This document shows positions 10,445-61,331 of a DNA stretch of 64,000 bases, piece by piece (the stretch's first letter is position 1; the number at the start of each line of letters is the position of its first letter). The position numbers and the translations under genes were made by a program. A model generated the notes under the pieces. It saw only the letters and a list, made by a program, of their open reading frames with translations, had not been told where the DNA came from and ran no database searches. This DNA is from Streptomyces antibioticus (GTDB lineage: Bacteria > Actinomycetota > Actinomycetes > Streptomycetales > Streptomycetaceae): contig NZ_KQ948423.1 in NCBI RefSeq assembly GCF_001514065.1, positions 891,717-955,716 of the forward strand, in the 5' to 3' direction.

Positions 10445-11041
10445 ATGAGCGACACACGCATCGAGCCGTTCTCCGACCGCTCCGACGTCTGCGGGGTCAC
10501 TGCGGACGGTGCGGCCTGGCTCGCCTCGGCAGAGACGTATCCGCGCAGCACGCTCGCCCTGTGGGAGGAGTGCCCGGACGCCCCGGTGGTGCTGCCGTGC
10601 GGCGCCTCGTTCGACGTCGTGAGCGCGCCCGCCATCTTCGGGCGCCGGATGCTCGACCGGCTATGGGGCGACGGGCCGGGGTCGGGGCCGGTGGCGATGT
10701 TCCGGGGCCGGATGCTGCTGTTCGCGGCGCCGGGCACCGCATATCGGCTGCCGTCGCTGCTGCAGTGGGAGGAGTGCGGCCGCACGGGCGCGATCCCGCC
10801 GCTGCTGTGCCACGGCAACGGCGACGCGGTGACGCTCCCCGCGCCCCTGCCGACACGCACCGCGCCGACCGCGTTCGACAGCCGCTGGCTGGTCGCCCCG
10901 GACACCCGTCACCCCTGGTTGCCGGGCCCCGAGATCCTGCTCTGGGCAGCCGTAAGGGCGGCCCGCGCGGCCGTGCGGATATCGATTTTTCCCCCGGCCG
11001 ATCAGGATGCTAAGGTCTACGACGTCAGCAGGCGCCGCTAG
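10445..11041 (+). CDS. Bifunctional primase/polymerase N-terminal-domain-like protein
   Basis: 198 residues from the ATG at 10445. The run AAWLASAETYPRSTLALWEE followed by VLPCGASFDVV and FGRRMLDRLW is the pattern of short Streptomyces proteins annotated as Prim-Pol (bifunctional DNA primase/polymerase, N-terminal) domain proteins. A hallmark catalytic aspartate pair is not evident, so a polymerase activity is doubtful; LLFAAPGTAYRLPSLLQWEE and LCHGNGDAVTLP are the other conserved-looking blocks. The stop TAG lies at 11039-11041, inside the following tRNA-Lys gene, and the last ~15 codons therefore coincide with the tRNA promoter; the C-terminus is poorly constrained. A GGCATATGCC palindrome lies about 92 bp upstream. 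Confidence 0.68.
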   Translation: MSDTRIEPFSDRSDVCGVTADGAAWLASAETYPRSTLALWEECPDAPVVLPCGASFDVVSAPAIFGRRMLDRLWGDGPGSGPVAMFRGRMLLFAAPGTAYRLPSLLQWEECGRTGAIPPLLCHGNGDAVTLPAPLPTRTAPTAFDSRWLVAPDTRHPWLPGPEILLWAAVRAARAAVRISIFPPADQDAKVYDVSRRR

Positions 11042-11105
11042 CTCAGTTGGTTAGAGCAGCTGACTCTTAATCAGCGGGTCCGGGGTTCGAGTCCCTGGCG
11101 GCGCA
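11032..11105 (+). tRNA. tRNA-Lys (CTT anticodon), copy 1
   Basis: 74 nt. Acceptor strands GCGCCGC and GCGGCGC pair perfectly (7 bp), D arm GCTCAGTTGGTTAGAGC, anticodon arm GCTGA-CTCTTAA-TCAGC with anticodon CTT, variable loop, T arm CGGGG-TTCGAGT-CCCTG, discriminator A. CCA is not encoded. A -10-like TAAGGT lies about 20 bp upstream, inside the end of the preceding reading frame. Identical in sequence to the copies at 25147 and 31056. Confidence 0.97.
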
Positions 11106-11116
11106 CAGACGAACGA

Positions 11117-14595: not shown

Positions 14596-15684
14596 TCAGG
14601 CCGCCGGCAGGCCGTAGGCGTCGGCGAGCAGTTCGTACGAGCGCAGCCGCACCGCACCACTGTGCGCGTGAGACGTGATCATCAGCTCGTCGGCGCCGGT
14701 GCGCTTCTGGAGGTCGTCGAGGCCGGCGCGGACCTCGTCGGCGGTGCCGTGGACGACGTTGGAGTTCCAGGACGTGGCGAAGTCCCGTTCCACGGGGCTG
14801 AACTCGTAGGCCTCCGCCTCCTCCGGGGTGGGGACGAGGCCGGGGCGGCCGGTGCGCAGCCGGATCATGTTGAGGCTCGCGGCGAGCACCTGGCGGCGGG
14901 CCTCCTTCTCGTCGTCGGTGGCGAGGGCGGAGACGCCGATGAGGGCGTAGGGCTCGGCGAGGATCTCGCTCGGGCGGAAGGCCTCGCGGTAGAGATCCAG
15001 GGCCGGGATGGTGTTCTGGGCCGAGAAGTGGTGGGCGAAGGCGAAGGGCAGGCCGAGCTCGGCGGCGAGGCGGGCGCTGAAGCCGGAGGAGCCGAGCAGC
15101 CAGATCGGCGGGCGGTGCGGGGACTGGACGCCGCCGGGGGACGTCGACTGGATCGGGCCGGGGACCGCGTGGATACGACGGTAGGGGTGGCCGTCGGGGA
15201 AGTCGTCGTCGAGGAAGCGGGTCAGCTCGGCGAGCTGCTCGGGGAAGTCGTCGGCGCCCTCGTGGAGACGGTCGCTGCGGCGCAGGGCGGCGGCCGTGGC
15301 GCCGTCGGTGCCGGGGGCGCGGCCGAGACCGAGGTCGACGCGATGCGGGGCCAGCGCCTCCAGCGTGCCGAACTGCTCCGCGATGACCAGCGGGGCGTGG
15401 TTGGGCAGCATGACGCCGCCCGAGCCGAGGCGGATGCGCTCGGTGTGGGCGGCGAGGTGGGCCAGGATCACGGCGGGGGACGACGAGGCCACGCCGGGCA
15501 TGGAGTGGTGCTCGGCGACCCAGTACCGGTGGAACCCGCGCGACTCCGTCAGCTTGGCGAGCTCGACGCTGGTGCGCAGCGCCTCGGTGGCGGTGTGCCC
15601 GGCGCCCACCGTGACCAGGTCCAGTACGGAGAGGGGGACGGGGGCGGTGCCGTGTGCGGTGCCCCGGGTCTCGTCTGACGTCAC
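14596..15684 (-). CDS. LLM-class (luciferase-like) flavin-dependent oxidoreductase
   Basis: 362 residues from the GTG at 15684. Landmarks of the bacterial luciferase-like family: PLSVLDLVTVG at the start, RYWVAEHHSMPGVASSSPAV, LGSGGVMLPNHAPLVIAEQF, and RVDLGLGRAPGTD. These place it in the group often annotated as alkanal monooxygenase-like or MsnO8-type. It should use reduced flavin supplied by a reductase not visible here. Substrate unknown. Convergent with the c-di-GMP gene, with 38 bp between stops. Confidence 0.9.
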   Translation of the reverse strand: MTSDETRGTAHGTAPVPLSVLDLVTVGAGHTATEALRTSVELAKLTESRGFHRYWVAEHHSMPGVASSSPAVILAHLAAHTERIRLGSGGVMLPNHAPLVIAEQFGTLEALAPHRVDLGLGRAPGTDGATAAALRRSDRLHEGADDFPEQLAELTRFLDDDFPDGHPYRRIHAVPGPIQSTSPGGVQSPHRPPIWLLGSSGFSARLAAELGLPFAFAHHFSAQNTIPALDLYREAFRPSEILAEPYALIGVSALATDDEKEARRQVLAASLNMIRLRTGRPGLVPTPEEAEAYEFSPVERDFATSWNSNVVHGTADEVRAGLDDLQKRTGADELMITSHAHSGAVRLRSYELLADAYGLPAA

Positions 15685-15759
15685 GGTGTGTGCCTCCTGC
15701 TTCCGGCCGTGCGCTGTCCGTCCGGAGGTAACAGGAGGCGGGCTCCGGTTTATTCCCGG

Positions 15760-16395
15760 TCAGGTGGTGGGCTTCTCCCATACCTTGACGGTGAGGTTCA
15801 CGATGCCGGTCCCGGGATTCGTGGAATCCACGGTGACCAGAGCGACCCGCCCGTCGCTCGTGATCAGGCAGACGCTACGGCCTTCGGCGACCGAGAGGTC
15901 CGACTGGGGTTTGGTGGTGGCCAGCAACTTGCACTCGCTGAAATCGGGCTCTTCCCCTTCGGGCACGAGTGCATAGTGGTTATTTACGAGCGTCGCCTTC
16001 GCGCCGTCAAAACCGTAAGGAAAGACATCGTCACCGCCGAGCGCGGGAGGCACGAGATCGAGATCGAATCCCGCCTGCTCTGAGAGCAGAGGACCCGCCC
16101 ATTGCACCTCCGGCGATTCGGTGTGCTGCGGTGCCGCGTCACCGCCGCCGGCGCCGTCCGGCTCCTCGGTCTGTACGGCGGGCCCGGCAGCGGCCGTGAC
16201 GGTCGCCGTGGCTGTCACCGTGGCCGTCTCCCGGACCGCGGCCGGTGACGTGACGCCCGCTGCCGGAAGGCCGATGAATCCGACCGCGAAGGTGAGGGCG
16301 CCGACGCCCGCGCTGATCAGCGCGGCGAACGTCTGCCATTTATGTGATGCCCCGGGCGGGCGCGGCGGGTACGGCGGCGGCGTGAATGACGACAT
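15760..16395 (-). CDS. Membrane-anchored extracytoplasmic protein, unknown function
   Basis: 211 residues. A Pro-rich cytosolic N-terminus (SSFTPPPYPPRPPGA) precedes one hydrophobic segment (about 20-45, FAALISAGVGALTFAVGFIG). A Thr/Val repeat stalk (TATVTATATVTAA, about 58-70) leads to a ~110-residue acidic outer domain with two cysteines (SECKLL, SVCLITSD) that may pair. This is a typical Streptomyces single-pass surface protein. No catalytic motif. Codon use is slightly less GC-biased than the neighbours. No operon partner: it is 75 bp from the oxidoreductase start and about 100 bp from the racemase-family stop. Confidence 0.8.
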   Translation of the reverse strand: MSSFTPPPYPPRPPGASHKWQTFAALISAGVGALTFAVGFIGLPAAGVTSPAAVRETATVTATATVTAAAGPAVQTEEPDGAGGGDAAPQHTESPEVQWAGPLLSEQAGFDLDLVPPALGGDDVFPYGFDGAKATLVNNHYALVPEGEEPDFSECKLLATTKPQSDLSVAEGRSVCLITSDGRVALVTVDSTNPGTGIVNLTVKVWEKPTT

Positions 16396-25146: not shown

Positions 25147-25220
25147 GCGCCGCTAGCTCAGTTGGTTAGAGCAGCTGACTCTTAATCAGCGGGTCCGGGG
25201 TTCGAGTCCCTGGCGGCGCA
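25147..25220 (+). tRNA. tRNA-Lys (CTT anticodon), copy 2
   Basis: Identical to the copy at 11032: 7-bp acceptor GCGCCGC/GCGGCGC, anticodon arm with CTT, T arm CGGGG/CCCTG, discriminator A, no encoded CCA. The acyl-CoA ligase gene on the other strand reads through its terminator into this gene. Confidence 0.97.
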
Positions 25221-26847
25221 CTCTTGAAGGGCCTCTCGTGGGAGCGAGGGGCCCTTCGATGTTGTGCAGATCGGCTTGGGTCAGTCGGCGGTACGTCCGC
25301 TCGCCAGGTGGGCGCCACCACACCGGGTCCTCGCAGTGGACGCCCTCCCGCCTCAGCAGGGCTCGGTGGATCTTGTTCGTGGCCGTCACCGGCATCCGGT
25401 CCACGACCCGTACGAAACGGGGCGCCATCTTCGTGCCCAGGTCGGGCTGGGCGGACAGGAAGGCCGTGAAGCCCGACGCGTCGAAGCTTCCCGCCAGCGT
25501 CGCCATCACCTGGTCGCCGGTCACCGGGTCCGGGACCGCGTACACGGCGACGGCGCCGGCCCCCTCGTAGCGCGCGAGGATGTTCTCGATCATCGCGGCG
25601 GCCAGGTTCTCCCCGTCGACCCGGATGCGGTCGTCCGCCCGGCCCGCGAAGTACAGGAAACCGTCGGCGTCCCGGCAGAACAGGTCGCCGGTCCAGTACC
25701 AGCCGTTCCTGCGCCGCTCCTGCTCCGCCTCCGGGTTGCGCCAGTAGCCCTCGAAGGGATTCGGAGCCCGGTTGACCAGCTCCCCTATCGCCTCGTCCCC
25801 GTTGAGCAGCCGCCCCGCCGCGTCGAACACCGCCGCCGGGCACTCGGCCCGCGTCTCCGGGTCGAGGACGACGAGACCCGGCCCCGCCCGCCCCACCGCC
25901 CCGGCCGGCGTCCCCGGCGACCACTGCACCGCCGCCCCGCCCTCCGAGGACCCGTACCCCTCCACCAGCCGCACTCCGAACCGCCGCTCGAAGGCCGCCG
26001 CGTCCACCGCCCCCGCCTCCGTGCCGAAGCCGATCCGGAGCGGGTTGTCCCGGTCGTCCTCGCGCTCCTCGGTCGCCAGGACGTACTGCACGGCCCGGCC
26101 CACGTACGTGAAGTACGTCGCCCCGTACCGCCGTACGTCCCCCAGGAACCCCGACGCCGAGAACCGCCGCCGCAGCGCGACCCCGGCTCCAGCCGCGAGC
26201 GCGGGCGCCCAGTCGGCGATCACCGCGTTGCCGTGGAACATCGGCATGCAGATGTAGTGCACATCGTCGGCGCCGACACTGAATTGTTCGGCGAGTGAGC
26301 GTCCCGCCCCGGCCAAGCGCCCCTGGGAGCAGAGCGCGGCCTTCGGGGCGCCCGTCGAACCCGAGGTGAAGTAGAGGAGGAGGCGGTCGCGCGGGTCGGC
26401 CCGGGAGGGGTCCGGGCGGGCGCCCGTGTACGGGGCGAGCAGGACCTCGTACTCCTCGGAGTCGGTCAACAGCATGCGCACGCCGGGGAGTTCGAGGCCG
26501 CGGAGGAGCGGTTCGTACGTCCGGTCCGTGATCAGGAGGCGGCACTCGGTGTGCAGGATGTCCCGGGCCAGTTCGGGGCCGCGGCGGGTGGGGTTGATGC
26601 CGGCGACGGCGGTACGGGCGAGGGCCGCCCCGCTCAACCACAGTGGATATTCAGGGGTGTTGTCGAGCAGCACGCCGATGTGCGCGCCGCCGGACGGGAG
26701 CAGGTCGGCCAGCAGCGCCGCCCGGGCCGCCGCGCCCGCCGCCACCTCGTGATGGGTGAGCGTCCGCTCCTCGAACCACAGGCCGGGCCGGTGATCGCCC
26801 CACCGCCCCGCCACGAGTTCCGCGACCGTGCACGCCTTGGACTCCAT
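25186..26847 (-). CDS. Acyl-CoA synthetase / AMP-dependent ligase (FadD-like)
   Basis: 553 residues. AMP-binding motif LLLYFTSGSTGAPKAALCSQG (A3-type), A5-like VEGYGSSEGGAA, A7/A8 GWYWTGDLFCRDADGFLYFAGRADDRIR, and the C-terminal lysine region TATNKIHRALLRRE. It adenylates a carboxylate and passes it to CoA; FadD17-like fatty acyl ligases are the closest style. The last ~25 codons run through the tRNA terminator stem and into the antisense strand of the tRNA-Lys gene (ending RQGLEPRTR, the well-known translation of a tRNA T arm). The annotated C-terminus is thus what the DNA gives, but those residues are probably not functional. Confidence 0.88.
   Translation of the reverse strand: MESKACTVAELVAGRWGDHRPGLWFEERTLTHHEVAAGAAARAALLADLLPSGGAHIGVLLDNTPEYPLWLSGAALARTAVAGINPTRRGPELARDILHTECRLLITDRTYEPLLRGLELPGVRMLLTDSEEYEVLLAPYTGARPDPSRADPRDRLLLYFTSGSTGAPKAALCSQGRLAGAGRSLAEQFSVGADDVHYICMPMFHGNAVIADWAPALAAGAGVALRRRFSASGFLGDVRRYGATYFTYVGRAVQYVLATEEREDDRDNPLRIGFGTEAGAVDAAAFERRFGVRLVEGYGSSEGGAAVQWSPGTPAGAVGRAGPGLVVLDPETRAECPAAVFDAAGRLLNGDEAIGELVNRAPNPFEGYWRNPEAEQERRRNGWYWTGDLFCRDADGFLYFAGRADDRIRVDGENLAAAMIENILARYEGAGAVAVYAVPDPVTGDQVMATLAGSFDASGFTAFLSAQPDLGTKMAPRFVRVVDRMPVTATNKIHRALLRREGVHCEDPVWWRPPGERTYRRLTQADLHNIEGPLAPTRGPSRVRRQGLEPRTR
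25226..25257 (+). terminator. Hairpin terminator after tRNA-Lys copy 2
   Basis: Outer stem GAAGGGCC / GGCCCTTC (8 bp, perfect), extended by an imperfect inner CTCGT/GCGAG pairing. The opposite strand of this stem is translated as part of the convergent ligase frame. Confidence 0.75.
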
Positions 26848-31055: not shown

Positions 31056-31129
31056 GCGCCGCTAGCTCAGTTGGTTAGAGCAGCTGACTCTTAATCAGCG
31101 GGTCCGGGGTTCGAGTCCCTGGCGGCGCA
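31056..31129 (+). tRNA. tRNA-Lys (CTT anticodon), copy 3
   Basis: Same 74-nt sequence as the copies at 11032 and 25147; preceded by GGTCAGCAG as is copy 1 (GCAG shared). A -10-like TAGAGT lies about 20 bp upstream. It is followed by its own terminator and then, about 100 bp on, by a second 3' half of the same tRNA. Confidence 0.97.
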
Positions 31130-31137
31130 CAGACGAC

Positions 31138-31167: not shown

Positions 31168-31226
31168 GCATCGGCGGTACAGCAGGGGCGGCCGGGGGTC
31201 CGGGGGTTGCCCCCGGGGGATGCGGC

Positions 31227-31268
31227 ATCAGCGGGTCCGGGGTTCGAGTCCCTGGCGGCGCACAGACA
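31227..31268 (+). repeat. Truncated 3'-half copy of tRNA-Lys
   Basis: ATCAGCGGGTCCGGGGTTCG and the rest to GGCGGCGCACAGAC match the 3' half of the upstream tRNA-Lys (from the anticodon stem 3' strand to the end) plus 6-7 flanking bases exactly. The 5' half is missing, so it cannot be a working tRNA. A GC-rich hairpin follows (about 31270-31300), so the unit 'tRNA 3' end plus terminator' has been duplicated. This is what an attachment-site scar or unequal recombination between tRNA copies would leave. Confidence 0.9.
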
Positions 31269-31602
31269 GCGAGGCCCTCCGTGGAAGCGGGGGGCCTTCC
31301 GCATACCTGGTTGAACCGGACAGGCCTGGGGTCCGTATGAAACGACGGGTCACGATCGACTCACTTCGGCAACATTCGCGCACGACTGCCCACAACGGCT
31401 CCACACTCTCCCCACAGGCGCCACAATGAACGCGTATGACCGGTAAACACCGCGTTTCGCATCTTGCGATCATGACTGGCACCGTAGAAACCTGGTCCTT
31501 CAAGCTGCTGCGGATTCGCGGCAGTTGGGGGGTACGGAGCCGGTTGCCGACGTTGACGGGGTGAGGGACCCCGTTTCATAAGGAGATGCCGAGGGGGGCA
31601 TC

Positions 31603-51338: not shown

Positions 51339-52358
51339 ATGCGCCCCGACACGCCTGCCGAGAACGTCGACCACACCGCCGAAGCGGCACGCCTGGAGCG
51401 AACCGCCGGCCTGTATCCCGAGGACGCCGAGCCCCTGCTCCTGCAGGCCGCCGCCCACCTGGAACTGTCCGGCGACCGCCCCGCGGCGACCGCGCTCTAC
51501 GACCGCCTGCTGTCGTCGTCCGCTCCGCTGGAGAGCCCGCATCTGGTACGCGCCCTCAAGGCGTCGAACCTCTGGGAGTACGGCCACGAGGCGGAGGCGA
51601 GGGCGATCATCGACGGCGTCCGCGCGGAGGCCCCCCGGGATCCGGCACCGTGGGTGATCGTGGCGGAGGCCCTGGAAGCCCACGACGAGCTGGAGCAGGC
51701 CCAGGAGACGTTCACGGAGGGAGCCGGCCTCCTCCTGACGGACGTGGCGGAGCCCCCGTACTCCACGCACCCCCTCCTGTTCGGCCGCCACCGTGTCCGC
51801 AGGATGCTCGGCGCCCCGCACGACGACTGGGACGTCCTGGCGGACACCCTCCACACGTCCCCGGTACCGCTGGACGAGCTGCACGACCCCAAGCGCGTCT
51901 GGTCCCTCGGCTCGGACAACCCGGCGGAACTGGCGGCGGAGATCTCCCGCCTCCGAGCAGAGCTCGGCACCTACCGCGAGGCCCTCTCCCGCCCCTTCCC
52001 GGTGGCGGTCCTGCACTGGCCGAAGGACGAACTGACAGAGCTGCTCACGGCATACGCGCCCCTGTCCGAGGAGTACCCCTCCCACGAGGAACACCTGGCG
52101 ACGATAGAGGCCTCCCTGCGCGAACTGGCGGCCTCCGGCACCCCGAACCTGGGCATCGTCACGGGCACGGTCCCGTCCTACGAGGCCTTCGCGGCGTCGG
52201 AGGGATCCTCCCCGGCGGACAGCGCGCTGCTCCCGCAGTACGCGACGACGCTGGCAGCCCGGGGCCGGGCGGTGGCGTGGCCGCCGCAGCGGGGGGCGGA
52301 GTGCTGGTGCGGCTCGGGCCAGGTCTACGGCGAGTGCCACGGGGTGGGGGCGGCGTAG
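51339..52358 (+). CDS. TPR-like protein with C-terminal SEC-C zinc motif
   Basis: 339 residues from the ATG at 51339. The N-terminal half is helical with TPR-like pairs (AEAARLERTAGLYPEDAEPLLL, AATALYDRLLSS, EARAIIDGVRAEAP). The end carries the SEC-C zinc site ECWCGSGQVYGECHG, a CxC...CH zinc knuckle also found at the SecA tail. Such proteins are usually cytosolic adaptors of unknown purpose. It stands alone between the GH30 gene and the convergent TOPRIM gene. Confidence 0.85.
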   Translation: MRPDTPAENVDHTAEAARLERTAGLYPEDAEPLLLQAAAHLELSGDRPAATALYDRLLSSSAPLESPHLVRALKASNLWEYGHEAEARAIIDGVRAEAPRDPAPWVIVAEALEAHDELEQAQETFTEGAGLLLTDVAEPPYSTHPLLFGRHRVRRMLGAPHDDWDVLADTLHTSPVPLDELHDPKRVWSLGSDNPAELAAEISRLRAELGTYREALSRPFPVAVLHWPKDELTELLTAYAPLSEEYPSHEEHLATIEASLRELAASGTPNLGIVTGTVPSYEAFAASEGSSPADSALLPQYATTLAARGRAVAWPPQRGAECWCGSGQVYGECHGVGAA

Positions 52359-52438: not shown

Positions 52439-53059
52439 TCAAAGACTGGCGAGCAGCCCCTCCAACGGAGCCGGCACCCGCTCCCCATCGAGCGCCTCGA
52501 CGAGAACGCGCCCGTAGCGGATCTTGCGCCCCTTCTTAGTCCCGAGAAATCGCCGGAACTGCTGCTCGGGAGCACGCCCTTGCTGAGCAGGCTGCTGCAG
52601 AAAAATCTCCAGGGCCCGCAGCTCACCCTCCCCCTCCACCAGCTCCCCCACGCGCGCCACCCCCAGGGCACGGATGAGCTCGTCCTCAAGATCCGCCGCG
52701 CAAACAAAGATCCCCTGCTCCCCCGCACCGCCCCGCTCAAATCCCCGCACGTAGTACGGCCGCTCCCGCTCATCACACAGCCCCACAAGCCGAACCCCCA
52801 GCCCAGAGGGCCCGAGCAACCCGGCATAGCGCCCCACATTCATGGCCCCACCCATGGACAACACGCACACCCCCTCCCCCTCCAGATCCCGCCCACGCCG
52901 CTCGGCGAGAGCATTGACGGCGGCAACATCACTCAGCCCCTCAACAAGCACCACAACCCGAACGGGCAACAACGCAGCGAGCTCAACCGCAGGCCCCTCG
53001 TCGCCACCACCCCCCACCCACGCAGCGACGGCATCCCGAAACGCCCCCATGTCAGTCAT
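52439..53059 (-). CDS. Stand-alone TOPRIM-domain protein (OLD-nuclease type)
   Basis: 206 residues from the ATG at 53059. The TOPRIM glutamate motif RVVVLVEGLSDVAAVNALA (about 28-46) is clear, with VCVLSMGGAMNVGRY and LVGLCDERERPYYVRGF as following strands; ADLEDELIRALG carries further acidic residues. This is the TOPRIM half of OLD-family nucleases, but no ATPase domain is attached and none is adjacent. It may be a truncated descendant or a regulator of another ATPase. It opens the lower-GC region that runs to 60.6 kb. Confidence 0.75.
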   Translation of the reverse strand: MTDMGAFRDAVAAWVGGGGDEGPAVELAALLPVRVVVLVEGLSDVAAVNALAERRGRDLEGEGVCVLSMGGAMNVGRYAGLLGPSGLGVRLVGLCDERERPYYVRGFERGGAGEQGIFVCAADLEDELIRALGVARVGELVEGEGELRALEIFLQQPAQQGRAPEQQFRRFLGTKKGRKIRYGRVLVEALDGERVPAPLEGLLASL

Positions 53060-53402
53060 AGGACGAGTCTCAGCCCACTCCACTCCGGGAGCGAGGCAAT
53101 TTCGGCGGCCCGCAAGCCGCCAAACCCACCCGGCGTGCAGGCGAGGCGCGTCGGCGCCCGGCAACGCGGGCTGACCGGAAACCGACCGTGATCGCCACCG
53201 ACCTCGGCCACCCGCCTTCCCGGGCCGCCCGCTCGCTTCTCCCCCGTGCTGGAGCGGCCCGGGTCAAGGGTGGCCCGAAGGGCCATCGGCGCAGCCGACG
53301 CGCAGCGCCCTTGAGGCGGGCCGCGGAAGCACGACACTGACGAGGAAGCGGGCGGCCCCAAGGGCACCTGCACAGCAGGCGAAGCCATGAACGCCCATCT
53401 CG
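53060..53402. other. 343-bp gene-free stretch, possible decayed gene
   Basis: No frame has convincing codon use. Several short GC-rich dyads (GGCGGCCCGCAAGCCGCC near 53103, GGGCCGC...GCGGCCC) and the rest of a once-coding composition suggest a remnant. Nothing recognisable. Confidence 0.45.
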
Positions 53403-53726
53403 TCACAGCTCAACAGGGTCACCGCTCACACCTCCGACGCCGCCCTCACCGTAGAACCGCCCTCGCTCGCAGAGGGCATCGATCTCCGCGTTCTCCGCCT
53501 CGCTCAACTGCCCGTCCAACGCAACGCTGATGACACGTCGCGCACGAGCCAGCCGCCGAGCAACATCCCAGTCGGCGACAAACTCCCCCGCGGTGCGCTC
53601 ATCGGCAGTCCCCGACGCTTGGCGGGACCCGATTCGATCAAGGGAAACCACGAACTCATTCAGGTCCTGCAGGACGGCCACGACTTCGTCGAGGGGGAGA
53701 CGGATCTCTCGGGAGGACATGTCCAT
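53403..53726 (-). CDS. Small acidic hypothetical protein, 107 residues
   Basis: The frame is open to 53804; the ATG at 53726 (MDMSSREIRLPLDEVVAVL) starts the part with good amphipathic helices. Two further helices follow (DWDVARRLARARRVISVALDG and SEAENAEIDALCERG). No family. It may pair with the helicase gene, which starts 136 bp away on the opposite strand, as antitoxin-like or regulator; that is guesswork from position. No clear ribosome site, so the start is uncertain. Confidence 0.55.
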   Translation of the reverse strand: MDMSSREIRLPLDEVVAVLQDLNEFVVSLDRIGSRQASGTADERTAGEFVADWDVARRLARARRVISVALDGQLSEAENAEIDALCERGRFYGEGGVGGVSGDPVEL

Positions 53727-53861
53727 CGCCCGATGGAACCCCAGAGGCAGCACCTGCGTCCAGGTCCGGATCTTGCTGGACGAAGCTCCTCCCCATAGCG
53801 CCACCTGCTACAACAGAGCCACTGCTGTGCGAGGTACACACGAGGGATAGGGGAACTCAGC

Positions 53862-56800
53862 GTGGCTCAGCCGGGGGATCTGTCGCAGCCTGTCGCGGGT
53901 GTCTATGAAGAACTCGTCACCCGCCGCATGCATGAGCAGATGGGGCAGTTGAACGCGGCCGGCTGGAAAGCCATCGAGGACGAGGTCAGCGAAGAATCGT
54001 CACCGCATGTCCTCGCCCGGCACATCAGTCGCGCTGTGAGACAACGCCTGAGTCAGCTCCCCCAGGACAAGCGCGTCGCCGTAGCCAACCAAATCATCGA
54101 ATCACTCGCGTCCGAACCGGTTGGCCTCGCAAACGCCGATCCTGTCGAACTGATCGCCGACGGGCCCCGGCAACTCCTCGCCTTGGCCGAGAAAGAAGCC
54201 CCCGGTGTCTACGCGATTCGTCCGCTGACACCCCTCTCAGAGACCGCCCTCATCACCAACTCCCCTGAGGACCCGAACCTCGGCAGTGAGCTGCGTGCTG
54301 AGCTAGCCACAGCGGACCGTATTGATCTGCTCTGCGCTTTTGTGAAGTGGTACGGGCTGCGCGTACTCGAAGACTCGCTGCGCGCCGCCGCGGAACGCGG
54401 CGTGCCCATCCGAGTCATCACCACCACTTACATCGGTGCCACCGACCGCCATGCGCTGGATCGACTCGTCCGCGACTTTGGTGCCGAAGTCAAGGTCAAC
54501 TACGAGATCCGTTCGACTCGCCTCCATGCAAAGGCCTGGCTGTTTCGCCGTAAGAGCGGCTTCGACACGGCGTACGTCGGCAGCTCCAACCTCTCGAAAG
54601 CCGCGCTGCTCGACGGCCTGGAGTGGAACGTGCGTCTCTCTTCTGTGGCTACTCCGGCGGTGCTCAAGAAGTTTGAGGCCACCTTCGATGCCTACTGGAA
54701 CGACATCGCTTTTGAGTCCTACGACCCGGATCGCGACGCCCGCAAGTTGGATGAGGCGTTGGGGCTGGCGGGTGGACCGACGTCCGGCCAGGACTTGAAG
54801 ATCAGCCTCTCTGGCCTTGAGGTTCGACCGCATCCGCACCAGGCCGACATGCTGGAGCGGCTGCGTGTGGAGCGCGAGGTTCGCGGCCACCGGCACAACT
54901 TGCTTGTTGCCGCCACTGGGACGGGCAAGACCGTCATGGCCGCCCTTGACTATCGCGAACTGCATAGGGAGTGGGGCGGCAAACAGTACCCTCGGCTTCT
55001 CTTTGTGGCGCATCGCAAGGAGATCCTGAAGCAGTCGCTGCGCATGTACCGCGAAGTGCTTGATGACGCATCCTTCGGCGAACCGCTCTTCAGCGGCGAG
55101 CTGCCGCGTGATTGGAAGCAGGTCTTCGCCAGCGTGCAGTCGCTCACGGACCAGCGACTCGACCAGTTCGATCCGGAACACTTCGACATCATCGTCATCG
55201 ACGAGTTCCATCACGCCACAGCTACGACGTATCGCCGCGTACTCAACCACTTCAAGCCGAAGCAGCTCCTGGGTCTGACCGCCACTCCGGAGCGTGCCGA
55301 TGGACTCAATGTGCAGGACGAATTCTTTGAGGGCCGAATCGCCGCCGAGATGCGGCTGTGGGAGGCCCTCGACAACGACCTGCTCTGCCCGTTCCACTAC
55401 TTTGGCGTACCTGACGGGACGGATCTCACCCGTCTCAACTGGCGTTCAGGGACGTACGACCAGAGCCAGCTCGGCGACTTGTTCTCTGCCGACCATGCCC
55501 GTGCCCGCATCGTTATCAAGCAGGTAAAAGACAAGGTCTCCGACCCGATGCGCATGCGGGCGCTCGGCTTCTGCGTCAGCAGGAAGCATGCCCACTTCAT
55601 GGCGAAGTGCTTCCAGGATGCGGGCTTTAAAGCTGCTGCTCTGGACAGCGAATCGAAGCCGGAAGTCCGTGACCATGTGTTGGCTCAGCTCAAGGCCGGA
55701 GAGATCCAAGTCATCTTCTCCGTAGACCTCTTCAACGAGGGCTTGGACATCCCCGATGTCGACACACTGCTCCTCTTGCGTCCGACTGGCAGCGCCACCG
55801 TCTTCCTTCAGCAGCTTGGGCGAGGGCTGCGCCGCACACCTGACAAGCCGGTGCTCACTGTGCTCGACTTCATCGGTCAGCATCGGGCCGAATTCCGGTT
55901 CGAGGAGCAGTTCCGCGCGATGACCAACCTGTCGCGCAACCGGCTGCTTGAGCACGCCGAGCGCGACTTCCCGCTGCTGCCATCGGGCTGCCAGATCATC
56001 CTCGAAGGTAAGTCCAAGCAGTTGGTACTGGACAACATCCGCACGCAGATCAAGGCGACCGTCCAGACCCTCGCCAAGGAAGCCCGGACCTTCGATACAC
56101 CGCTCCTCGCAGACTATCTGCGGGAGAGTCGCCGTGAGATCAGGGAGCTGTACAAGTCAAGCAACTCCTGGACGTCCGTTCTGCGCCGTGCTGGTCTAGC
56201 CGGACATGCTGAACAGCCGGGCGAGGAAGACCTGTTGAGGCGTGTGCATGCGTTCCTGCACGTCGATGACCTCGAGCGCGCCGAGACGTACACCCGTCTG
56301 CTGAGCGATGACGCGCCGACGTACGAGTCGCTGAATCCGAAGGACAAGACGTACGCGCGCATGCTCTTCTTCAACCTCTGGGACAAGGCCGGTGGGTTCG
56401 AGTCCTACGCTCAGGGGCTGGAGTCACTCCGGGAACAGCGCGCCCTCCGCGACGAACTGCGACAGGTATTTGCCCACGTGATGGGTCAGGCCGACCACTT
56501 CCCGATCCCTCTGGAAGGCCCACACGCACACATCCCCATGAAGGTCCACAGTGCGTACAACCGCTCTGAAATCCTTGCCGCGCTCGGAGTCGCGCGCCTC
56601 GGCGGTCAGATGCCTGGCTCGTTCGCGCAGGGTGTTCTGTGGGACGAGCAGAACCAGACGGACGCACTGCTGATCACTCTCGAGAAGAACGAGAAGGACT
56701 TCTCGCCCACTGTCCGATACAAGGACTACGCGCTCACCCCCTCCTTGTTCCACTGGGAGTCACAGAGCACGACCGCAGACACCTCGCCCACCGGGCTGCG

Positions 56801-57011
56801 CTACCAACAGCACCACCATCGTGGGAGCCATGTGCTGATGTTCATGCGGCGTTACAAGGACACCGACATCGGCAAAGCACAGCCCTGGATGCTGCTCGGT
56901 CCAGCGACCTTTGTCCGACACGAGGGCAGTAAGCCCATGGCCATCACCTGGCGACTGCATCACGACCTGCCTGCGGATGTGTGGTCGTACTCGGGCATCA
57001 CCGCGGGCTAG
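53862..57011 (+). CDS. PLD nuclease - DEAD/DEAH helicase - DUF3427 fusion protein
   Basis: 1049 residues from the GTG at 53862 (AGGGGA upstream). Order: N-terminal helical part (1-115); phospholipase D-type nuclease domain with LHAKAWLF (His222, Lys224) and YVGSSNLSKAAL; then an SF2 helicase with Walker A TGTGKT (352-357), DEFH box (447-450), LLGLTATPER (motif III), and motif VI QQLGRGLRRTPDKP; C-terminal DUF3427 (about 830-1040). This is a complete nuclease-helicase. Relatives occur in defence islands of many bacteria. It should act on DNA or RNA in the cytoplasm. Codon use is clearly less GC-rich than in the core genes, a sign of transfer. Confidence 0.92.
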   Translation: MAQPGDLSQPVAGVYEELVTRRMHEQMGQLNAAGWKAIEDEVSEESSPHVLARHISRAVRQRLSQLPQDKRVAVANQIIESLASEPVGLANADPVELIADGPRQLLALAEKEAPGVYAIRPLTPLSETALITNSPEDPNLGSELRAELATADRIDLLCAFVKWYGLRVLEDSLRAAAERGVPIRVITTTYIGATDRHALDRLVRDFGAEVKVNYEIRSTRLHAKAWLFRRKSGFDTAYVGSSNLSKAALLDGLEWNVRLSSVATPAVLKKFEATFDAYWNDIAFESYDPDRDARKLDEALGLAGGPTSGQDLKISLSGLEVRPHPHQADMLERLRVEREVRGHRHNLLVAATGTGKTVMAALDYRELHREWGGKQYPRLLFVAHRKEILKQSLRMYREVLDDASFGEPLFSGELPRDWKQVFASVQSLTDQRLDQFDPEHFDIIVIDEFHHATATTYRRVLNHFKPKQLLGLTATPERADGLNVQDEFFEGRIAAEMRLWEALDNDLLCPFHYFGVPDGTDLTRLNWRSGTYDQSQLGDLFSADHARARIVIKQVKDKVSDPMRMRALGFCVSRKHAHFMAKCFQDAGFKAAALDSESKPEVRDHVLAQLKAGEIQVIFSVDLFNEGLDIPDVDTLLLLRPTGSATVFLQQLGRGLRRTPDKPVLTVLDFIGQHRAEFRFEEQFRAMTNLSRNRLLEHAERDFPLLPSGCQIILEGKSKQLVLDNIRTQIKATVQTLAKEARTFDTPLLADYLRESRREIRELYKSSNSWTSVLRRAGLAGHAEQPGEEDLLRRVHAFLHVDDLERAETYTRLLSDDAPTYESLNPKDKTYARMLFFNLWDKAGGFESYAQGLESLREQRALRDELRQVFAHVMGQADHFPIPLEGPHAHIPMKVHSAYNRSEILAALGVARLGGQMPGSFAQGVLWDEQNQTDALLITLEKNEKDFSPTVRYKDYALTPSLFHWESQSTTADTSPTGLRYQQHHHRGSHVLMFMRRYKDTDIGKAQPWMLLGPATFVRHEGSKPMAITWRLHHDLPADVWSYSGITAG

Positions 57012-57022
57012 CCGCCCACCGC

Positions 57023-57718
57023 TCAGACTGCCTCATCGGTCCGGGCCTCAAAGTGCGTCTGTGCTTGATCGAGTACGTCGTCGGGGTCGTAGCCGTGTGC
57101 ATGTAGCCAATCCAGCAAGTCGGCCATGACCCCAATGGCAGCCTCGCCTACCGCTGTCGCACTCAGCACGCTGCCTTCACCGAACACGGCCCTTCCAGGC
57201 GGGAGTTGCCACGCTTCATACAGGTCGAGAAGCGCCTCGGCCCGCACCACACGAGGGCCACCCGTCCGCCCCAGGACGGTCGGTTCATCGGAGGTGGCAA
57301 GCTCGCACCACACCACCTTCGAGCCTTCACGAAGGAACACGCCCCAGCGATGGTTCGTCAGGGCGTCAACGAGAGCCATCCCGCGGCCTGACTCCGACGC
57401 GCTGCTGGCCGCAAGCAAGGTGGGCAATGCGCGCGTATGGGGGTCCTCCAACTCCAGACGCAGATATGGCTCACTGAGCGCCATGCGCAGCGACGCAGGT
57501 GTCCCTTCTCCGACGTGCCGGATGACGTTGGTGACCAGCTCTGACAGGCAGAGCTGCGCTACATCAACGTGATCTCGTAGCCCCCACAGGATGAGGCGGA
57601 TCTTCAACATCCTTCTCAACTGGGAGAGTTCGCTGGGCTGGGCAGCGAACTGATGCACCCAGGGCTCACGTCCCATGCAGTCGCTCACATAGATCACCTT
57701 CGACCGCCTCTCACACAT
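57023..57718 (-). CDS. ATP-binding protein, anti-sigma-factor kinase fold (WhiJ-locus type)
   Basis: 231 residues from the ATG at 57718 (frame open to 57730; another start at MGREPWV is possible). A GHKL/HATPase_c fold is visible: LCLSELVTNVIRHVGEG (N box), LELEDPHTRALP (G1-like) and SGRGMALVDALTNHRWGV (G2-like). Then a ~90-residue unrelated C-terminus. In Streptomyces such ATPase genes sit next to WhiJ-like XRE and DUF397 genes, as here. Its N-terminus has several cysteines that look like noise from the wrong start. Confidence 0.85.
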   Translation of the reverse strand: MCERRSKVIYVSDCMGREPWVHQFAAQPSELSQLRRMLKIRLILWGLRDHVDVAQLCLSELVTNVIRHVGEGTPASLRMALSEPYLRLELEDPHTRALPTLLAASSASESGRGMALVDALTNHRWGVFLREGSKVVWCELATSDEPTVLGRTGGPRVVRAEALLDLYEAWQLPPGRAVFGEGSVLSATAVGEAAIGVMADLLDWLHAHGYDPDDVLDQAQTHFEARTDEAV

Positions 57719-57875
57719 CCCGTCGCACACCGTGCTTGTCGATGACTCTCAGTGAGAGAGTTGCAGCGCCCATCCCGCCATGCAACATGCACGAAGGGAT
57801 TCCCCCTTTAGGGTGATTGGCCTTTCGAGCCCCTTCCGATGGGATGGAACATCCGCTACCTCACGAGGAGTTGGT

Positions 57876-58724
57876 ATGGCCGGATCCCCTACGGCTCGCC
57901 GTCGACGTCTTGCAATCGAGCTCAAGCGGCTACGCGAAGAGAGCAGCCTGACCTGTAGCCAGGTGGGCAAGGAGCTGGACTGGAGTAGTTCCAAAGTCAG
58001 CCGCATGGAGACGGGACAGGGGCGCGTCCAACCCTCCGACGTCGATGCCCTCTGCCGCTTCTACGAGACCACCGACGAACTGCGCGACCTCCTGAAGTCA
58101 CTGGCCAAGGAGTCCAAGACGAAGGGGTGGTGGCACGCACACGGCGATGCGATCCCCACATGGTTCTCCGTCTATGTCGGCCTCGAACAGGCGGCCGCGC
58201 ACTTGCACACCTATCAAGCCGAGTTCGTCCCGGGGCTCCTGCAAACCAGTGAGTACGCAGCCGAGCTGAGCCGAGCTTGGGTTGATCACACGCCCGAGGA
58301 CATTCAGGGCATGGTCGACGTCAGGATGCGCCGCCAGGAGCTACTCACCAGCGAGGGCGCTCCCGACTTGTGGGCGGTGGTGCACCAAAGCGCACTCCAA
58401 CACACAGTCGGCAGCCGCCAGGTCATGGGTCGCCAACTCGAACGTATGCTGGATATCCAGAAGTTGAAGAACGTGACTGTTCAAGTCCTTCCGTTCGACG
58501 CCGGCGCCTACCCGACCACGGGGTCATTCACAGTCCTCGGCTTCCCGGAGCAGGAGGACCCCGACTTGGTCTATCGAGAGGGGCTTAGTGACTCGGTCTA
58601 TCTTGAAGAGCCCAAGGACGTGGGCCTCTATACGAAGGCGTTCGACCACCTTCGGGCCTTGGCTCTCAGCCCGCAGCGATCAGCCACGCTGATTACCAGA
58701 CTCTTGGAGGAGCACTCCCGATGA
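57876..58724 (+). CDS. WhiJ-type XRE regulator with DUF5753 domain
   Basis: 282 residues from the ATG at 57876, with ACGAGGAG 6 bases upstream. The N-terminal HTH (about 10-65) reads IELKRLREESSLTCSQVGKEL and SKVSRMETGQGRV. The DUF5753 domain (about 95-280) shows FVPGLLQTSEYA and VQVLPFDAGAYP. This is the WhiJ/BldB-neighbour family that controls developmental switches. It is coupled to the DUF397 gene by an ATGA overlap and divergent from the ATPase gene, about 158 bp apart. Confidence 0.93.
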   Translation: MAGSPTARRRRLAIELKRLREESSLTCSQVGKELDWSSSKVSRMETGQGRVQPSDVDALCRFYETTDELRDLLKSLAKESKTKGWWHAHGDAIPTWFSVYVGLEQAAAHLHTYQAEFVPGLLQTSEYAAELSRAWVDHTPEDIQGMVDVRMRRQELLTSEGAPDLWAVVHQSALQHTVGSRQVMGRQLERMLDIQKLKNVTVQVLPFDAGAYPTTGSFTVLGFPEQEDPDLVYREGLSDSVYLEEPKDVGLYTKAFDHLRALALSPQRSATLITRLLEEHSR

Positions 58725-58930
58725 CCTCATCGTCGAGCGTCGAGTGGCACAGGAGCAGCTACAGCAACGGCATGGGGGGCGAGTGCTTGGAAGTTGCGGC
58801 GCTCGCTGAATCGGTCACCGTACGCGACTCCAAAGCCGCCTCCGGCAGCCCTCAGCTCATGTTCAACATCCCTACCTGGCGGAGTTTCATACGGACGCTG
58901 ACACTCGGGACGGACGAACCCACTAGCTGA
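58721..58930 (+). CDS. DUF397 small protein (WhiJ partner)
   Basis: 69 residues. The family hallmark WHRSSYSNGMGGECLEVA and VTVRDSKAAS are present, and the end is a WRSFI-type helix. Overlaps the XRE stop by 4 bp. DUF397 proteins bind or modulate the neighbouring WhiJ-type regulator. Its stop lies 8 bp inside the 3' end of the convergent membrane-protein gene. Confidence 0.92.
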   Translation: MTSSSSVEWHRSSYSNGMGGECLEVAALAESVTVRDSKAASGSPQLMFNIPTWRSFIRTLTLGTDEPTS

Positions 58931-59498
58931 CAGGCTGCAACGGGTCACGAATGATTTCTCCCGTACGCTCCAGGAACGCGGCATAAGCCCGGACCATCTC
59001 CCCCCTAACCTCTTCAAGACTAGACCAGTCCACGGCCAGGCCTACAGAGTTTGTGCCCGCCACCTGCATCAAGACGCCCACTACCTCCATCGACTTCCGA
59101 GATAGGGCGTGAGCGAGCTGATACGCCTCATTTGGACCCCAAAGGGCCAAACGGCTAGTTTTCGCCTTAAGTTCAACGGTGCACTCTCGGAGTTCACGGC
59201 CAGTCGCCTCATCAAGCCTGGCCCCACCTCGCACTTCAGGAGTGATGCGGACGACCACTTCATCCAGTACGGCATAAGCGTCCAGAAGTGCAGCAAAAGC
59301 CTGATGTCGCTGGCTACGCACCCACTGCCAGTGTTCCGCAGCGGCCTGACCATGCACCCCAGCCAACGCTGCCTCAACTGCCTTTCGCCCACCGGTTTCA
59401 GCCCCGCGCTTGGCGTACACCCCGGCGATGACAGCACCGATGACGGCGGCCGCGAAGGCGATTACTGCCCCAATGACTGTCCCCGTCACCTCACTCAT
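58923..59498 (-). CDS. Small membrane-anchored protein with helical cytosolic tail
   Basis: 191 residues from the ATG at 59498 (GAGGA upstream). An N-terminal hydrophobic segment (about 5-30, VIGAVIAFAAAVIGAVIAGV) is followed by a basic AKRG turn and a long helical domain: AAEHWQWVRSQRHQAFAALLDA, then ELRECTVELKAKTSRL. No family recognised. The pattern of a short TM anchor with long helices is seen in many defence-island genes of unknown role. Its 3' end overlaps the DUF397 stop; it sits between the WhiJ trio and the SRA-like gene. Confidence 0.7.
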   Translation of the reverse strand: MSEVTGTVIGAVIAFAAAVIGAVIAGVYAKRGAETGGRKAVEAALAGVHGQAAAEHWQWVRSQRHQAFAALLDAYAVLDEVVVRITPEVRGGARLDEATGRELRECTVELKAKTSRLALWGPNEAYQLAHALSRKSMEVVGVLMQVAGTNSVGLAVDWSSLEEVRGEMVRAYAAFLERTGEIIRDPLQPVS

Positions 59499-59599
59499 CA
59501 CGCCATCCTCGCCTGGATGTGGCGCAACCACAACGGCCACTCAGACAACTTGGGCCACTCTCAACACTCCGTGAGCTCTGAAACCACTAGCCTCGGATC

Positions 59600-60640
59600 A
59601 TGACGACGCCCACGGCCAGGTTCACGCCCGGCGACATCCTCACGCGCGCACAGATCCACCCCGTGCTCGGCGGCAGCGGCTTCGCCGGAATCTGCCCAGC
59701 CAGAGAGAAGCGGAACGTTCTCATATTCTCCGATAGCAAAATAGGTAGGCGCTACGGATATCGAGACGGATGGCTCAGCGAGGAAGACGCTTTCGGCCCC
59801 ATATTCACCTACACCGGAGCAGGAAAGCGCGGCAATCAGACGTTAGAGGGCGGCAACGCCGCCATCCTCGATCACGCGAGCATGGGACGCACTCTGCATG
59901 TTTTCATCGCCGTGGGAAATGTGCCGGGAACCGGCACGCGGACGCACAAGTACATAGGTGAATTCAAGGTCGATGACGAACACCGGCCGTACGACATACG
60001 GGAGGCCAAAGATGAATTAGGCGCCGACCGCAACGTCATCGTCTTCCGACTACGCCCCACCGGTCCATACATACGAGAAGAATCTGACACTCTGCCGCTA
60101 GCGCCCAGACCTCGCATTAGATTCCAGCGGACCGCAGGCAGCCTTGCTCGGACGTATCGACGCAAGAGGCGCCAGCGACAACCTCAGACCGAAACCGCCC
60201 GGATAGAAGCTCTCCGCGATGACCTGGCGGAAGCCTTCGAAGAGCACGAGACCGCGGCTGGGATGGACATCGGGCAGATGGAGTTATCGCTACAGAACTC
60301 AACAGATCAACTTTCTTTCGAGATTTACAATCAGACAAACCACACGATCTACCAGCCGACGGGGAGCGCGGCACCCGAGTCCATCACTCAGGCGCTAGCT
60401 CAACTCCTGCATGCACAGCACCATTTGAAGACCGCAGTCCCGGATCAGCCGCTCCACTTGATGGTGCTAGCTCCCTCGCTTCCCCGCGAGGACCTCCGCG
60501 ACTTGCTCAGTGAACACGGGATCGGCCTCGTCTACCGCACCGAGACTGGCGACTTCTCTGAGTTGATAGGTGGCATCAGCGCAACCGACGGTCATCAATC
60601 TTTCCGCTGTCTGGATTGCCCGGTTTCTGTCCCTGCCTGA
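59600..60640 (+). CDS. SRA-type (modified-base-reading) N-domain protein of unknown C-terminus
   Basis: 346 residues. Residues ~8-120 look like the SRA-type domain found in McrA-like restriction enzymes of Streptomyces: GDILTRAQIHPVLGGSGFAG, VLIFSDSKIGRRYGYRDGW, then a YTGAGKRGNQT turn and GNAAILDHASMGRTLHVF, a pattern I recall as IFSDP..GYxDGW...YTGEGQxGDQ...GN.AI..H..GR.L.LF. Residues ~180-230 are basic, then an acidic helical part and a C-terminal domain of unknown fold. No HNH or other nuclease motif is visible. G+C is the lowest in the window. It may read modified DNA for a partner, perhaps the PLD helicase. Confidence 0.72.
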   Translation: MTTPTARFTPGDILTRAQIHPVLGGSGFAGICPAREKRNVLIFSDSKIGRRYGYRDGWLSEEDAFGPIFTYTGAGKRGNQTLEGGNAAILDHASMGRTLHVFIAVGNVPGTGTRTHKYIGEFKVDDEHRPYDIREAKDELGADRNVIVFRLRPTGPYIREESDTLPLAPRPRIRFQRTAGSLARTYRRKRRQRQPQTETARIEALRDDLAEAFEEHETAAGMDIGQMELSLQNSTDQLSFEIYNQTNHTIYQPTGSAAPESITQALAQLLHAQHHLKTAVPDQPLHLMVLAPSLPREDLRDLLSEHGIGLVYRTETGDFSELIGGISATDGHQSFRCLDCPVSVPA

Positions 60641-60771
60641 GACACCCGCTTCTCACTCTGTGAAGCGATGCGGTGACAGTGCGACACTCGCACCCCGGGG
60701 GTGGCTTCAGCCCGGAAGCTCTACCCCGACCAAGGAAACGATCTCTAAGTCCGACAGTGCAGGATAGAACC

Positions 60772-61269
60772 ATGACAACCAAGGTCTACTTCGACATCAC
60801 CATCAACGACGAGCCCGCCGGCCGTATCAACTTCAACCTCTTCGACGACGTCGTCCCGAAGACGGCCGAGAACTTCCGTGCCCTCGCCACCGGCGAGAAG
60901 GGCTTCGGTTACGCCGGGTCCTCCTTCCACCGCGTCATCCCCGCCTTCATGCTCCAGGGCGGCGACTTCACCCGGGGCAACGGCACCGGCGGCAAGAGCA
61001 TCTACGGTGAGAAGTTCGCCGACGAGAACTTCACCCTCAAGCACGACAAGCCCGGCCTGCTGTCCATGGCCAACGCCGGCCCGAACACCAACGGCTCGCA
61101 GTTCTTCATCACGACCATCGTGACGGACTGGCTGGACGGCAAGCACGTGGTCTTCGGCGAGGTCGCCGACGAGACCAGCATGGAGCTCGTCAAGAAGATC
61201 GAGGCGCTCGGTTCGCGCAGCGGCACCACCTCGGCGAAGATCACCATCGCCGAGTCGGGTCAGCTCTGA
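60772..61269 (+). CDS. Cyclophilin-type peptidyl-prolyl cis-trans isomerase
   Basis: 165 residues from the ATG at 60772. The cyclophilin core is complete: [40 protein letters not shown] (catalytic Arg-Phe region), [18 protein letters not shown] and [10 protein letters not shown]. Cytosolic single-domain form, no signal peptide. Speeds proline isomerisation in protein folding. A return to host-like GC content marks the end of the foreign stretch. Confidence 0.97.
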
Positions 61270-61292
61270 CACCTGCCCCACGGCACCTGTGA

Positions 61293-61331
61293 ACGGCCGG
61301 CGCGTATGTCGTAAGTCATCGCGCCGGCCGT
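61293..61331 (+). terminator. Hairpin terminator after the cyclophilin gene
   Basis: Perfect 12-bp stem ACGGCCGGCGCG / CGCGCCGGCCGT, loop of 15 bases, 24 bp after the stop codon. Confidence 0.85.

Follow-up and report, generated by a model that had tools for sequence, protein, structure and literature searches.

The stretch of DNA analysed here (the window) comprises 64,000 nucleotides of Streptomyces antibioticus, located on a 1.1-Mb contig (NZ_KQ948423.1) within a 10.1-Mb genome, and it holds a candidate DNA-defence locus in which a helicase-nuclease resembling the Type IV restriction enzyme SauUSI (hereafter the helicase) is encoded near an SRA-like protein and a small protein with one putative transmembrane (TM) segment. 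From left to right the genes are a SEC-C gene, a TOPRIM gene and a gene for a 133-amino-acid protein (both on the minus strand), the helicase gene, a trio of regulator-like genes, the one-TM gene, the SRA-like gene and a cyclophilin gene. All genes listed in a first-pass annotation of the bare sequence were found where it had placed them, and the drop in G+C that it had noticed was borne out along 46-64 kb: all 600-base intervals from 53,500 to 61,299 (approximately 53.5-61.3 kb) had a G+C content of 0.58-0.64, against 0.67-0.77 in the flanking intervals on either side. The TOPRIM part (52.3-53.2 kb, G+C 0.69-0.70) lay outside the drop. The segment is not core sequence, the helicase being present in 63 of the 199 Streptomyces genomes that made up the genus scan and the SRA family in 37, a count that includes some genomes matching by the SRA half only.

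The helicase (53862..57011, plus strand) combines an N-terminal PLD domain, an SF2 motor and a C-terminal DUF3427 domain, as identified from Pfam, PADLOC, the PDB and sequence motifs. PLDc_2, ResIII (124.5 bits), Helicase_C (55.9) and DUF3427 (67.4) each scored above the Pfam cut-off, the PADLOC model mREase_IV PDLC03659 matched residues 105-1045 with 1723 bits, and PDB entry 7clg matched with E 3e-84. The HxK, Walker A, DEFHH and motif VI (QLGRGLR) strings were kept in all 85 distinct helicase homologues. In PLD nucleases, the H and the K form the catalytic pair. The initial description of a nuclease-helicase therefore held for the helicase motifs and the PLD HxK, but not for a 'complete PLD active site', since the last E of the SauUSI motif H-x-K-x4-E (PMC7913695) is R in the window helicase when aligned to 7clg, a difference that is treated as a motif detail and not as a defining feature. 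Entry 7clg was taken as the SauUSI structure on the basis of its code, named once in PMC7913695, and its length of 953 residues. Judged by sequence and domain order, which is the sense of 'SauUSI-type' throughout, the helicase is a SauUSI-type enzyme, a known Type IV kind, and ATP-dependent cleavage of DNA containing 5-methylcytosine (5mC) or 5-hydroxymethylcytosine (5hmC) is predicted from this likeness. In SauUSI, the C-terminal part adopts an SRA fold and recognises 5mC/5hmC sites (PMC7913695, PMC3874153), so the window helicase probably has a reader of its own. For the genus-wide comparisons, 61 of the 63 helicase loci were taken in, the window included (G138 and G144, both fragments, were left out), and 58 of them, in which the match exceeded 850 residues, formed the full-length set. 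Four Streptomyces plasmids (NZ_CP108415, NZ_CP108308, NZ_CP108576 and NZ_CP108436) matched only the last third of the helicase (coupler and DUF3427, approximately 60% identity), perhaps a split or decoy form.

The SRA-like gene (59600..60640, plus strand) encodes an SRA domain (approximately residues 1-160) followed by a degenerate PD-(D/E)XK-like domain (approximately residues 205-322), as judged from a family alignment, a tree and profile matches. The window protein matched no Pfam family above the cut-off, and searches against Pfam, PADLOC and NCBIfam showed no HNH family in it. A profile built from 24 family members, among them the window protein, matched the SRA domain of ScoMcrA (5zmn, E 3.6e-6; 5zmm, E 6.5e-6), while SAD_SRA matched seven of the 24 at E values up to 0.1 (best 0.0035) and the PADLOC Type IV model PDLC03662 also matched seven. 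In its relatives the second half carries T-D-L-Y-D-x6-L-Y-E-x-K-G-S and G-Q-L-x-D-Y-x-R, or near variants, a pattern that we take to denote a PD-(D/E)XK nuclease with a QxxxY motif; the window protein has E241, Q252, T254 and A272 where the relatives have D, E, K and Y. Tox-REase-9 ('restriction endonuclease fold') weakly matched the C-terminal halves of all 17 intact proteins tested (of 49; best E 2.1e-4), the sole score shown being 15.5 bits, below the cut-off of 27.3, and a profile of intact halves matched the dead halves at 99.5% probability. A PDB search with the intact nuclease half returned chance matches only (E values from 0.11 upwards, to apolipoprotein E and a second chain), and the PD-(D/E)XK assignment consequently rests on the motif pattern together with the weak Pfam match. 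By these marks, the C-terminal half of the window protein appears to be a PD-(D/E)XK-like nuclease domain with a ruined active site. The protein had been described as an SRA-like reader lacking any nuclease motif; the reader, of ScoMcrA type, was confirmed, but a nuclease-type domain is present, though dead. A C-terminal RCxDCP tail (window positions 60605-60622) was found in 21 of the 22 proteins of the window's clade (clade A, below) and in no other protein of the alignment. The reading favoured here, to which we assign about an even chance of being correct, is that the locus consists of a SauUSI-type enzyme and an accessory, nuclease-dead reader of modified bases.

Members of the SRA family were gathered from the genus scan (32 of 42 places, the ten weaker ones, none of them near a helicase by position, being left out) and from 60 loci found when 84,980 species genomes were scanned for two peptide patterns. 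The 92 proteins gathered corresponded to 85 distinct ones when identical proteins were counted once (L170 and L070, the latter from genome G122, carry the same protein), and 83 entered the tree and the counts, L226 (frame-broken, a second copy in one genome) and L221 (broken) being left out. The catalytic D, E and K were kept in 49 of the 83 proteins (intact) and lost in 34 (dead). The dead proteins include clade A (22 proteins including that of the window, none with K254 or Y272), to which the long-branched L190 is added; clade B (nine proteins, with E replaced by A or S and K by R); L222, sister to clade B, in which E is lost and K kept; and L206, in which the catalytic K is T. On a tree of the 83 proteins built without the catalytic columns, the catalytic state changed three times and the presence of a helicase five times. 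The intact relatives presumably cut DNA. By eye, from the translations, one intact SRA nuclease stands among phage-like genes (L189, 6145-14229) and another beside an integrase-like gene (L199, 8695-9849), and both look like mobile-element cargo. A phage origin of the SRA gene was considered and not adopted; a search of phage records turned up a single weak relative of the reader half, which appears in two entries for one Gordonia phage. The draft genome of S. afghaniensis 772 has two contigs (L210 and L226), each with a clade B locus; in L226 the helicase and SRA matches are broken into pieces.

In the dead proteins, the two halves have fared differently. Reader positions conserved in the intact proteins were kept in 568 of 594 cases (96%) in clade A and 239 of 243 (98%) in clade B, and nuclease-half positions in 296 of 572 (52%) and 183 of 234 (78%), respectively. 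The median pairwise ratio of nonsynonymous to synonymous substitution rates (dN/dS) of the dead half was 0.186 in clade A (210 of 231 pairs used) and 0.153 in clade B (22 of 36), compared with 0.054 (13 of 28) and 0.082 (8 of 15) for the nuclease half in two intact groups, and the reader half gave 0.11-0.13 in all four groups; only pairs with dS between 0.05 and 1.5 were used, and the ratios are rough, with dS near saturation in many pairs (medians 0.7-1.2). That the dead half evolves at roughly two to three times the ratio of intact halves, at a variable site that collects genes, is what would be expected of a passenger, that is, of an SRA gene that inserted into a defence hotspot, was made redundant by a stronger Type IV enzyme next to it and is now decaying. 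Yet a dN/dS of 0.15-0.19 is still that of purifying selection, so the dead domain has been kept and not discarded; its mean column identity is 75% among 12 window-clade proteins, the reading frame is open in 22 of 22, and the reader is conserved. Decay of a passenger is accordingly regarded as very improbable.

The dead SRA genes are accompanied by genes of their own. In the window, the companion is the one-TM gene (58923..59498, minus strand), which is divergent to the SRA gene and encodes a helical protein with a single N-terminal hydrophobic segment, in agreement with the anchored helical protein first predicted. Its start is best placed at 59498, on the strength of a GAGGA-type site that is nearly conserved across the 17 loci aligned. 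The same alignment covers the divergent intergenic region common to both genes (59499..59599), presumably their promoter region; a TAGCCT-like box (59588-59593), six bases before the SRA start codon, is conserved in the window and its 16 relatives, and no clear ribosome site was seen upstream of that codon in the 17 loci, so that the SRA transcript may be leaderless. The one-TM gene stands beside all 22 clade A SRA genes, with a more distant version (33%) at L190 and weaker relatives (27-39% identity) elsewhere in the genus. Clade B, L222 and L226 have instead a 324-amino-acid protein just downstream of the SRA gene in 11 of 11 loci (for example L222, 3262-4236); it was found in no other locus of the set and matched no Pfam or PADLOC family, and an Agrobacterium plasmid carries a distant relative. 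In the clade of L120, L195 and L206 the SRA gene, whether or not a helicase is present, has beside it a gene for a DUF6602 protein that resembles NucC (PADLOC, 4.8e-20), seen at 19 loci (one a duplicate; example L195, 11134-11979). The SRA nucleases there are mostly intact, and each with its DUF6602 protein is a candidate for another defence pair. Such clade-specific companions suggest that an SRA gene and its companion form a two-gene module, which has joined the helicase in several lines; clade A modules were found on at least two separate helicase lineages.

These companions also raise the question of whether the module works alone, as an abortive-infection system in which the dead SRA protein is the sensor, the one-TM protein or (in clade B) the 324-amino-acid protein is the effector, and the helicase is a mere neighbour. 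Every dead-clade locus has its own companion (the TM gene in 23 of 23, the 324-amino-acid protein in 11 of 11), and L222 has the SRA gene and the 324-amino-acid protein in a genome with no helicase match. The TM module, however, has a helicase in the locus in 21 of 23 cases, the other two lying at contig ends in helicase-bearing genomes, and the TM protein matches no Pfam family above the cut-off and none in PADLOC. On these grounds an independent module seems unlikely.

The association of the helicase with the SRA gene, which carries the accessory-reader interpretation, was assessed in both surveys. As the grouping in the first-pass annotation had implied, the helicase and the base reader sit together repeatedly in the genus: an SRA family member lies within 4 kb of 12 of the 58 full-length helicases, and the two families, far from almost never co-occurring, are both present in 22 of the 199 genomes, adjacent in 12 and apart in 10. 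In the set of 83, 30 dead SRA genes have a helicase in the locus and four stand near a contig end; no dead gene with at least 5 kb on both sides stands without a helicase. The intact SRA genes comprise 10 with a helicase, 33 without and six near a contig end. For two of the dead genes at contig ends (L180 and L185), a helicase match was found elsewhere in the assembly, stopping 3 and 66 bases from the contig start, as expected from an assembly break at the locus. Three of 18 searched genomes with an intact SRA gene and no helicase nearby carried the helicase elsewhere. Spacing is tight in clade B, where eight of nine SRA genes lie 45-58 bp downstream of the helicase (the ninth at 368 bp, by alignment end). 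A SEC-C gene was present in the locus of 33 of the 40 helicase-bearing SRA genes (27 of 30 dead, 6 of 10 intact) compared with none of the 33 helicase-free intact ones. Genes do gather at the SEC-C site, but given this last count, chance meeting at a hotspot was judged an unlikely explanation for the presence of the SRA gene.

Under the accessory-reader interpretation, the SRA protein would descend from a self-sufficient modification-dependent nuclease, made up of an SRA reader and a PD-(D/E)XK-like cutter, which kept its reader, lost its cutting site and came to share its locus with the gene, on the other strand, of a small partner anchored in the membrane. The dead protein would bind DNA carrying a modified base that the DUF3427 reader of the helicase misses or sees poorly, and would bring in or license the helicase, perhaps by direct contact; the helicase would then move along the DNA and cut it with its PLD domain, presumably in defence against phages. 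A wider proposition, tentative and on balance rather doubtful, is that actinobacterial SRA plus PD-(D/E)XK nucleases have repeatedly become dead readers, each with a private companion, that serve as a second, exchangeable recognition module on a SauUSI-type motor-nuclease, giving a modular multi-reader Type IV system built from a disarmed rival enzyme.

Several observations weigh against this interpretation. The helicase is often alone: for 46 of the 85 distinct helicases, the 4 kb on either side contain no SRA gene, and L072 and L075, which fall inside the window's own helicase clade, lack the SRA module, so the module is not required by the helicase. Where a genome has both families they are apart in 10 of 22 cases, and the catalytic site is kept in 10 helicase-adjacent SRA proteins. 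Two dead SRA genes at contig ends (L206 and L222) come from draft genomes without a helicase match and, as the helicase-free L222 is sister to clade B, the loss in that line may have preceded the pairing. The companion genes could be the true partners. Some of the helicase-free relatives belong to other genera, which may lack the SEC-C site. Sampling favours the window's clade, because the scan patterns came from the reader half near it, and proteins that had lost the reader could not be found. Finally, an independent-pairs test yielded two usable pairs only; with so few deaths in the tree (three changes, two pairs), a link between loss of the site and the helicase cannot reach significance, and none is claimed.

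The direction of the effect could also be the reverse, with the dead protein acting as a guard or inhibitor that covers modified host sites or binds the helicase and so limits self-damage, in the manner of a dominant negative. A dead reader would be expected to compete for the same modified bases, an inactive domain of DndH has been proposed to act as a dominant negative (PMC10853773), and a divergent gene pair would permit tuned expression. The frequency of solitary helicases bears on this alternative as well, since the 46 of 85 without an SRA gene within 4 kb indicate that the helicase needs no guard as a rule; we consider a guarding role improbable, and a dead reader that acts in favour of the helicase remains the preferred interpretation.

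SauUSI has the same domain order as the window helicase (PLD, SF2 motor, C-terminal DUF3427); the latter has approximately 100 extra residues ahead of the point where the alignment begins (141, compared with 41 in SauUSI). SauUSI is active as a single polypeptide (PMC3874153); it consists of one kind of polypeptide, whereas the window helicase has a second reader protein beside it. The SRA domain of ScoMcrA (PMC7461809) is related by profile to that of the window family, and the SRA-HNH enzymes TagI and ScoA3IV (TagI and the SRA-HNH family, PMC6212794) have a fused HNH nuclease, whereas the window protein carries a dead, PD-(D/E)XK-like nuclease half; among plasmid relatives of the SRA half, several bear an HNH endonuclease annotation. 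The MspJI family, in which an SRA-like reader is followed by an Mrr-type PD-(D/E)XK cutter (PMC3874153), has its functions in the order suggested for the window protein, whose putative PD-(D/E)XK-like half lacks the intact D, E and K (E241, Q252 and T254); no entry named as MspJI-family was among the PDB profile matches. The nearest precedent for a separate reader is provided by EVE proteins, stand-alone readers of modified bases encoded next to SWI2/SNF2 helicase-nuclease genes, and SauUSI homologues lie beside EVE proteins in variable regions of Streptococcus (PMC7641849); the domain differs, and the excerpt of that article mentions no dead nuclease half. No nuclease-dead SRA protein paired with a SauUSI-type enzyme appeared in titles or abstract starts among the literature matches listed, which leave subscription literature largely uncovered and are not proof of absence.

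If the accessory-reader interpretation is right, exchange of a small module could alter the specificity of a Type IV enzyme, and Streptomyces would have a second layer of restriction. Streptomyces genetics is hampered by restriction of methylated DNA. The locus would also illustrate cleanly how a restriction nuclease can evolve into a subunit for regulation or targeting, and relatives with the active site intact are available for comparison with the dead SRA protein.

The trio between the helicase and the one-TM gene consists of an AbaA-like HATPase (57023..57730, minus strand, convergent with the helicase; HATPase_c_2, 28.6 bits against a Pfam cut-off of 27.4), a WhiJ-like HTH_31-DUF5753 regulator (57780..58724, plus strand; the true start may be 57876) and a DUF397 (BldB-family) protein (58721..58930, plus strand), the last two also identified by Pfam. 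Clusters of AbaA, WhiJ and BldB paralogues, with HATPase, XRE-type regulator and DUF397 genes side by side, have been described in Streptomyces (PMC10294661), and 14 XRE-DUF397 pairs were reported to be regulators, none a toxin-antitoxin pair (PMC10364602); unlike those clusters, the window trio converges closely with the gene of a restriction helicase. Of the 58 full-length helicase loci, 24 have the trio no more than 300 bp from the helicase and 32 have it within 5 kb; it was also present within 15 kb in nine of 20 chosen loci with a SEC-C gene and no intact helicase (one of the other chosen loci, L162, keeps a helicase remnant). As a required part of the system it was not upheld. It had been thought either unrelated or a regulator, and because it is also present at this site where no intact helicase is, it is regarded as a frequent neighbour, for which a regulatory role is only possible. 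In L198, a Vsr-like nuclease gene (15402-15776, minus strand; Pfam score just below the cut-off) lies between the helicase and the trio.

Two further genes lie to the left of the helicase. The lone OLD-like TOPRIM protein (52439..53164, minus strand; 241 amino acids) is present as first described and matches only the C-terminal part of GajA models, but it was rejected as part of the system and judged an unrelated insertion: it occurs in 138 of the 199 genomes, yet of the 60 helicase loci other than the window only L117 has it (approximately 10 kb away), and it was found in none of a second set of loci, which includes the nearest relative, L169. In L169, only approximately 245 bp separate the SEC-C gene from the helicase. 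Gabija and OLD systems have an ATPase fused to the TOPRIM domain, and a GajB-type helicase partner. They were rejected as models for the locus, the TOPRIM domain standing alone in 241 amino acids and GajB not being among the best 25 of the 34 PADLOC matches of the helicase. The 133-amino-acid protein (53403..53804, minus strand) carries no family assignment; it was likewise rejected as a part and judged unrelated, as it occurs in nine of the 199 genomes and is absent from the other 60 helicase loci.

The site itself is marked on the left by the conserved TPR/SEC-C gene (51339..52358, plus strand; named by eye from its translation), present in 157 of the 199 genomes and at 48 of the 58 full-length helicase loci, and on the right by a cyclophilin peptidyl-prolyl isomerase gene (60772..61269, plus strand; Pfam Pro_isomerase), neither being considered part of the system. 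The cyclophilin gene is also downstream in L169, L182, L183 and L187 and was not seen in a further set of 80 loci, where the right edge is thus often further away. Between the two genes lies a variable stretch, and this SEC-C-marked site appears to be a shared integration site. Elsewhere in the window, a tRNA-Lys gene is present in three copies (11032-11106, 25147-25221 and 31056-31130), and a partial fourth copy (31181-31269) matches its 3' part, an arrangement that resembles integrated elements with tRNA-Lys as attachment site.

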